A stretch of DNA of 64,000 nt from Petrotoga sp. 9PWA.NaAc.5.4. GTDB taxonomy: Bacteria > Thermotogota > Thermotogae > Petrotogales > Petrotogaceae. A program made the position numbers and the translations under genes. Below, one piece after another: positions 31,530-32,913 of this stretch (position 1 is the first letter of the stretch; each line of letters starts with the position of its first letter). The notes beneath the pieces are model-generated. The model did no database searches and was not told where the DNA came from. It saw only the letters and a list, made by a program, of their open reading frames with translations. Location: the NCBI RefSeq assembly GCF_002895485.1, contig NZ_AZRK01000013.1, forward strand, positions 1 to 64,000, read 5' to 3'.

Positions 31530-32450
31530 TTAGTTTAAAACAACAGATTTTTCTTTCTCACAAACTTCCTTCATAAAATTCACTGTTTTTTCAACAAATT
31601 TTATCGTCAAAAAATCTTTTAACTCTAATTCAAAAGAATGATCTCCTTTAGGATGAATAAGTAAAGAAACATCGACTCCAAATTCTTTTAATTTTTTATA
31701 AAGTTTTATAGAAGAATCTACAGGAACAGTAGTGTCTTTTTTACCATGAACCAAAAGTGTTGGGATCATATATTTAGAGACATAATTTATGGGAGAATAC
31801 AATTTATAATCTTCTATTTTTCTTTTCGGAGATCCTTTCATAGTAGTAGTAATTGCAAACTTTGCAAAGAGTGATTCAACTTGTTGATTCCATAAGTCTA
31901 ATAGATCTGCTGGCGCATACCATGAAACTACTCCTGTTATACCTTGCATTTCCTCCCAATTATGATTAAAGGTATGATAAGCAGCATAATAAAGAGATAA
32001 TGTACCGCCTGCAGATGTTCCCATTAAGATAATTTTGTTTTTATCAATATTTAAATCCTTAGCATGAGTTTTTATATATTGCAAAGCGTTAGAATAATCT
32101 TCTATTAATGCTTCATATTTGTGAAAATAAGCATACCTATAATCAATGGAAACTACCGCAAATCCCCTACTGGCTAAAAATTTTGCCCAGGCAGTAGCAC
32201 TTGCCAACTTTCTACTTCCAGTTATCCAGCCTCCCCCATGTGCAAAGAAAACAACGGGAAAGGCATTTTTCTTTTTTGAAGGAAAATATATGTCAAATTT
32301 CAACGGAACTGTTTCTTCCTTATATACAAATGTATGAGGACCATTATAAGAATTTTTTTCACTTCTAATGGAAGACGTCCAAGTATTGATTTTCTTATTG
32401 TTTTCAAATTTAACAACAAAACAATAAAAAAAGCTAAAAGAAAATTCCAA
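31530..32450 (-). CDS. Alpha/beta hydrolase (BD-FAE-like), apparent frameshift near its N-terminus
   Basis: The C-terminal 270 residues are a clear esterase/lipase-type hydrolase. The oxyanion motif is FFAHGGGWITG, the nucleophile is MGTSAGGTLS, and Asp (HGKKDTTVP) and His (KGDHSFE) complete the triad. The frame can only be opened by a TTG at 32450 that has no ribosome site. Upstream, a frame with a basic N-terminus and a strong membrane helix runs from 32578 and overlaps this one. The two would join by a -1 shift at either of two seven-T tracts on the coding strand. The intact product would be a membrane-anchored esterase. Confidence 0.8.
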   Translation of the reverse strand: MEFSFSFFYCFVVKFENNKKINTWTSSIRSEKNSYNGPHTFVYKEETVPLKFDIYFPSKKKNAFPVVFFAHGGGWITGSRKLASATAWAKFLASRGFAVVSIDYRYAYFHKYEALIEDYSNALQYIKTHAKDLNIDKNKIILMGTSAGGTLSLYYAAYHTFNHNWEEMQGITGVVSWYAPADLLDLWNQQVESLFAKFAITTTMKGSPKRKIEDYKLYSPINYVSKYMIPTLLVHGKKDTTVPVDSSIKLYKKLKEFGVDVSLLIHPKGDHSFELELKDFLTIKFVEKTVNFMKEVCEKEKSVVLN

Positions 32451-32578
32451 AAAAACAAAAGAAATACAAAAATAGTTCCTATCAACTTAAAAAATTTTTT
32501 TAAAAATTTGACGTTAGATTTTGTTTTTAAATCTTTGTCTTCAACTTGTCCTTCCAAATTTTTCGAGATTTTAACCAC
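32396..32578 (-). pseudogene. N-terminal membrane-anchor part of the hydrolase, in a shifted frame
   Basis: A GTG-initiated frame (32578) encodes a basic start and the helix KLIGTIFVFLLFFWNFLLAFF, then loses sense where the hydrolase frame takes over. T7 tracts on the coding strand lie opposite 32426-32432 and 32449-32455. It could be a broken gene, a sequencing error in a homopolymer, or a slippage site. The ribosome site upstream is poor. Confidence 0.5.
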
Positions 32579-32679
32579 TCCATATTTATATTTCTTAAGG
32601 AAAAACTTTAAAATTTAATAAAAATGAATTTTTATTAATGAAATTATAGCATATTTTATTAAATAAAAGCAAAAAAATG

Positions 32680-32702
32680 AAAGACGGCATTCCGCCGCCT
32701 TT
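32680..32702 (-). terminator. Terminator of the small lysine-rich ORF
   Basis: On the minus strand AAAGGCGGC pairs with GCCGTCTTT (one G-U) around GGAAT, followed by CATTTTTTT. It lies 28 bp after the stop of the small ORF. Confidence 0.8.
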
Positions 32703-32729
32703 TTTATTACTTTTTAATCCTTAGTTTTA

Positions 32730-32879
32730 CTACTTTTTATCTTTCTTTTGATTGTCCTGTGGCTTACCTTTTTTATCTTTCTTATCTTTTTCAGGTTTTT
32801 TGTCCACAGTCCCGCCTCCCTTGGCATTTAGCCCTAATAATGGAAAAAATGGTAACACCATATTTTTTAATCTTTTCAT
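32730..32879 (-). CDS. 49-residue lysine-rich small protein, apparently leaderless
   Basis: The ORF starts MKRLKNMVLPFFPLLGLNAK and ends in a charged tail rich in Lys, Asp and Gly-Lys (PEKDKKDKKGKPQDNQKKDKK, last 21 residues less the final K shown split as PEKDKKDKKGK and PQDNQKKDKK). It has a short hydrophobic patch at residues 8-18. No Shine-Dalgarno sequence precedes the ATG, but a promoter (TTGCTT-17-TATAAT) ends 5 bases before it and a terminator follows, so it forms a complete transcription unit. I do not recognise a family. Confidence 0.6.
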   Translation of the reverse strand: MKRLKNMVLPFFPLLGLNAKGGGTVDKKPEKDKKDKKGKPQDNQKKDKK

Positions 32880-32884
32880 TAATT

Positions 32885-32913
32885 ATTATATCATACAATG
32901 GGATTCAAAGCAA
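32885..32913 (-). promoter_or_regulatory. Promoter of the small lysine-rich ORF
   Basis: On the minus strand TTGCTT (32908-32913), 17-base spacer, TATAAT (32885-32890). Only five bases separate the -10 box from the ATG at 32879, so the expected start point falls on or next to the start codon. Confidence 0.65.

Follow-up and report, generated by a model that had tools for sequence, protein, structure and literature searches.

Sequence inspection of the window, by which we mean the whole 64,000-nucleotide stretch of DNA analyzed, revealed a promoter, a 49-codon ATG frame and a hairpin terminator with a T tail, all on the minus strand between 32913 and 32671. The preliminary description had listed these three elements, and they are present as it gave them: the frame occupies 32730 to 32879, the TTGCTT-17-TATAAT promoter lies at 32913 to 32885, and an intrinsic terminator follows at 32702 to 32671. 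The promoter is composed of TTGCTT (32913 to 32908), a 17-nt spacer and TATAAT (32890 to 32885), with an extended TGA preceding the −10 element (TGATATAAT). Its predicted transcription start is at 32879 or adjoining it, on or next to the ATG. The terminator (AAAGGCGGCGGAATGCCGTCTTT followed by CATTTTTTT) has its stem at 32702 to 32680 and a T tail running to 32671, and it includes a shorter nested version of itself. No other terminator was found in 2.1 kb, in which shuffled sequence yields 0.5. Equivalent terminators follow the related genes in G003, G009 and genus g3.

Within the 49-codon frame, a Shine-Dalgarno (SD) sequence, AAGGGAGG (32822 to 32815), sits 7 nt 5′ of an in-frame GTG at 32807 to 32805. 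The locus had been said to have no ribosome site; this site contradicts that claim, and the frame that begins at the GTG is the part kept in relatives. The predicted microprotein gene runs from 32807 to 32730, translates to VDKKPEKDKKDKKGKPQDNQKKDKK, which gives a product of 25 aa, (V/M)DKKPEKDKKDKKGKPQDNQKKDKK, and ends in TAG. The TATAAT-to-start spacing, in-frame stops and leader identity point to a 5′ leader of about 72 nt (32808 to 32879), which would include the first 24 codons of the 49-codon ORF. ORFs of 15 to 30 aa with at least 44% lysine and an SD-type site occur once in the 64-kb window and not at all in 960 kb of first-order Markov sequence.

A protein search of 60 relatives with the 49-aa ORF returned the window only, plus four weak matches. 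Two of these four came from a single repeated element in G050, which contains a short K/D frame and does not resemble the family. A DNA search of relatives gave one meaningful match, in G003, and the remainder was AT-rich noise. The G003 locus reads promoter, leader, AAGGGAGGCTTGGCTA, ATGGATAAGAAACCTGAA and terminator, and its product is MDKKPEKKKDQGKKDKPKDSKKK. The window gene and its G003 counterpart were used to build a covariance model from sequence only, with which we scanned 103 genomes. The matches were G009 (E = 1e-40), contig C14 of the genome from which the window comes, which has a second copy of the gene (1e-15), and G012, which has a gene of genus g3 (8e-6); the G012-type locus was also found in G014, G016 and G018, at 0.001 to 0.003. 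The peptides read from these loci are MDKKSDKKKDQGKKDKPKNAPKKK, MYKKFDKKKDRSKKDKPKDNPKKE, MAEEKKKKQDKPKDKPKK and MAEEKKKKKDKPKDKPKK. A second model, built without any g3 gene, recovered all four g3 genes at about 1e-7. In the reverse test, a g3 model recovered G003 weakly (0.001) and did not recover the window gene; therefore, the link between the window and g3 rests mainly on the second model and the common layout. A pattern of SD, start codon and KP core returned the same gene set plus only two unrelated matches in the 103 genomes. Patterns for an MDKKPEK start matched, besides the true pair, ABC-transporter-like, FtsH-like and radical-SAM-like genes, and a weak model match at L095/L099 was discarded as lying inside a larger conserved reading frame.

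Besides the window gene, the homologs are thus two genes in genus g4, four in genus g3 and the C14 copy. Together these are eight genes in seven genomes of three genera, each a short conserved frame behind an SD. The preliminary description had reasoned that a frame not conserved in near relatives would suggest a noncoding RNA; the frame from the GTG is kept in all seven other genes. Every homolog has GGAGG followed by a frame of 18 to 25 codons with 46 to 56% lysine, ending in a KKDKPKDxPKK-like motif, and all except the C14 copy keep a promoter 82 to 86 nt upstream and a terminator. The homologs in two other genera support the earlier picture of a very small, lysine-rich protein whose gene has a promoter and terminator of its own. 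The family is small, and similarity within it is easily inflated by the lysine-rich composition. By our genome comparisons, this predicted family is restricted to part of the Petrotogaceae, a few Petrotoga-like genomes, and was previously unannotated. Genes of 18 to 25 aa in this group escape an ordinary protein search. G022, from another family of the order, carries a stand-alone gene (L162:1545-1601) with GGAGG, the product MPGKNKKEKKTKKGKKDE (18 aa, 50% K) and a strong terminator. It had no credible DNA homolog in the 103 genomes and is therefore not counted as family despite its like layout. A repeated palindromic element with the core GTAGAGACGCCCGATATGGGCGTCT was seen beside the G003 homolog (L030, near 1301 to 1400).

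The distance from TATAAT to the start codon is 83 nt in the window and in G003, 82 nt in G009, 85 nt in G012 and G014, and 86 nt in G016; the C14 copy, at 53 nt, is the sole outlier. TTGCTT with a TG-extended TATAAT also occurs in G014 and G016, and TTGATT occurs in G003 and G009, at an equal distance from the start codon. In-frame stops lie 2 (C14), 8 (G009), 11 (G016) and 21 (G003) codons 5′ of the conserved start, and in G012 the frame is open upstream but without an ATG. At the position of the window ATG, G003 has ATGGATCGAGTAAGTGTATAA (six codons and a stop) and G009 has ATGGATTGA (a two-codon frame). Because the first 24 codons of the 49-codon ORF are not conserved and most homologs have in-frame stops there, this region is best read as mRNA leader. 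The hydrophobic patch formerly assigned to the peptide falls in this untranslated leader, outside the conserved frame. Between the window and the other genera, the promoter, SD and ORF are mostly above composition-matched shuffles, whereas the leader and flanks are near background, and the ORF is the best-conserved segment. Substitutions fall at codon position 3 in 15 of 27 cases, a modest excess whose p value (0.014) is approximate because the sequence pairs share sequences.

The gene has a TolB-like gene on one side and an esterase gene on the other and stands alone between them. Each of the six g3 and two g4 genomes examined has these two genes close together, with no comparable ORF in between, and therefore orthologs cannot be located through the neighbors. 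In the window genome, an extra stretch of about 330 bases here carries the microprotein gene. The C14 copy and the g3 genes have a common neighbor, a divergently transcribed TPR-like protein (64 to 77% identity), and their site is therefore likely the older one. The C14 copy has kept the ORF and lost a recognizable promoter and terminator; in the window copy all parts are present, and it has the look of a second copy that has moved. G002 retains the flanks of the g3 site, and the gene is missing from the −10 element to beyond the terminator. The gene is dispensable, because it was lost in this g3 genome and not seen in another of the six, G008. Phage and plasmid records gave no match, and an origin from a mobile element or phage was rejected. 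It is comparison among genomes that establishes the predicted gene limits and start codon, the family, the loss and the change of place.

The esterase gene itself has an apparent start at a non-AUG isoleucine codon (window 32567 to 32580, minus strand; L007 to L014). Eight relatives have a GGAG-like site, 8 nt and then ATA (ATT in L014), directly behind an in-frame TGA or TAA; L012 has no in-frame ATG, GTG or TTG ahead of the membrane segment. In the window, ATC stands at an equal spacing. A conserved AUA/AUU/AUC start, if true, would be unusual. The window esterase is also frameshifted at a run of seven A's (32353 to 32359, minus strand), where LPLEVKK gives way to NSYNGP in a different frame and the frame of relatives continues; this may be a sequencing error, decay or slippage. 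Directly after the microprotein terminator, window 32615 to 32672 (minus strand) holds a second promoter-like site, TTGCTT-18-TATAAT (TGC-extended), whose −35 begins in the T tail, and then a perfect 11-bp palindrome, TTAATAAAAAT-TC-ATTTTTATTAA, which is perhaps an operator for the esterase gene.

Very probably, the gene is structured as laid out above, with GTG 32807 as its start codon. The locus had been described as probably leaderless, that is, as encoding a 49-residue protein translated from ATG 32879, and indeed the predicted transcription start coincides with that ATG and the frame is open from there through to the GTG. However, a leaderless mRNA has its start codon at the 5′ end and uses no SD, whereas here an SD exists downstream of the ATG, the conserved start lies 82 to 86 nt from TATAAT behind GGAGG, and stops interrupt the interval in homologs. 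The codons that only the longer protein would have are not conserved, as ATGGATCGAGTAAGTGTATAA and ATGGATTGA illustrate, and a multi-omic map of Thermotoga maritima detected no leaderless transcripts (PMC3636130). We consider the leaderless reading highly improbable, and since comparison with related bacteria puts the start of the 25-residue frame at a GTG within the longer ORF, preceded by a strong ribosome-binding site, the gene is predicted not to be leaderless. This removes a claimed exception in the Thermotogota, and makes known a small family of unannotated proteins whose predicted start codon is precise.

A small regulatory RNA of about 205 nt, in which the K-rich frame is incidental or secondary (a dual-function RNA), would also explain a stand-alone promoter and terminator, and the leader is well kept between G003 and G009 (0.88 identity). 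Between genera, however, conservation extends to the ORF and SD but not to the leader, third-position changes are in excess, and there is no Rfam match. Folding of the leaders was not better than that of shuffled sequences (z = 0.99, 0.86, 0.18 and −0.36), and therefore we claim no riboswitch; a conserved SD-sequestering hairpin was rejected as well, although short complementary GCC/GGC arms exist. A regulatory RNA thus appears improbable. The succession of short ORF, terminator and esterase gene in the same direction could be that of a leader peptide or attenuator controlling the downstream gene. This is hardly to be expected when the next gene varies from esterase (window) to response regulator (G003), LacI-like regulator (G009) and 968-aa protein (g3), and when a promoter-like site for the esterase itself lies beyond the terminator.

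The microprotein gene would then be expressed from a conventional mRNA, with a vegetative extended −10 promoter, a leader of about 72 nt, a strong SD, a GTG, 25 codons and an intrinsic terminator. The strength of its promoter, SD and terminator would suggest steady expression. The predicted product of this free-standing gene is a 25-residue, lysine-rich, disordered, lineage-specific microprotein. The conserved peptides have a net charge of about +5 to +8, consist mostly of K, D and P, and have no hydrophobic stretch or core. Searches of Pfam, NCBIfam, PHROGs, PDB and Rfam matched no family. Type I toxins are hydrophobic membrane-spanning peptides, in contrast to these, which are 46 to 56% lysine. 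From this composition, we tentatively suggest that this cationic peptide might pair with a polyanion, RNA or the ribosome being the likeliest. We think it rather unlikely, but worth stating, that the genes represent an undescribed Petrotogaceae-specific family of highly expressed polylysine-like microproteins that serve thermophiles as a genetically encoded polycation for RNA, ribosomes or DNA, with a gene of similar stand-alone type, that for MPGKNKKEKKTKKGKKDE, in a neighboring family of the order.

Thermus bTHX (Thx) is a basic ribosomal protein of about 26 aa from a thermophile. The window family resembles it in size, strongly basic character and thermophilic host. However, the family is K/D/P-rich, has no arginine in most copies, is found in some Petrotogaceae only, and matched nothing in Pfam or NCBIfam at E ≤ 1, a test of Thx membership weakened by the short length. 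Many described bacterial small proteins are hydrophobic membrane peptides, unlike the window peptide, which has no hydrophobic stretch. The gene does resemble those of unannotated bacterial small proteins (<50 aa) in being monocistronic, with a strong SD and a tiny frame conserved in a narrow lineage. In the same phylum, T. maritima has putative noncoding RNAs with ORFs under 40 aa and no peptide evidence (PMC3636130); these too are intergenic transcripts with tiny ORFs.
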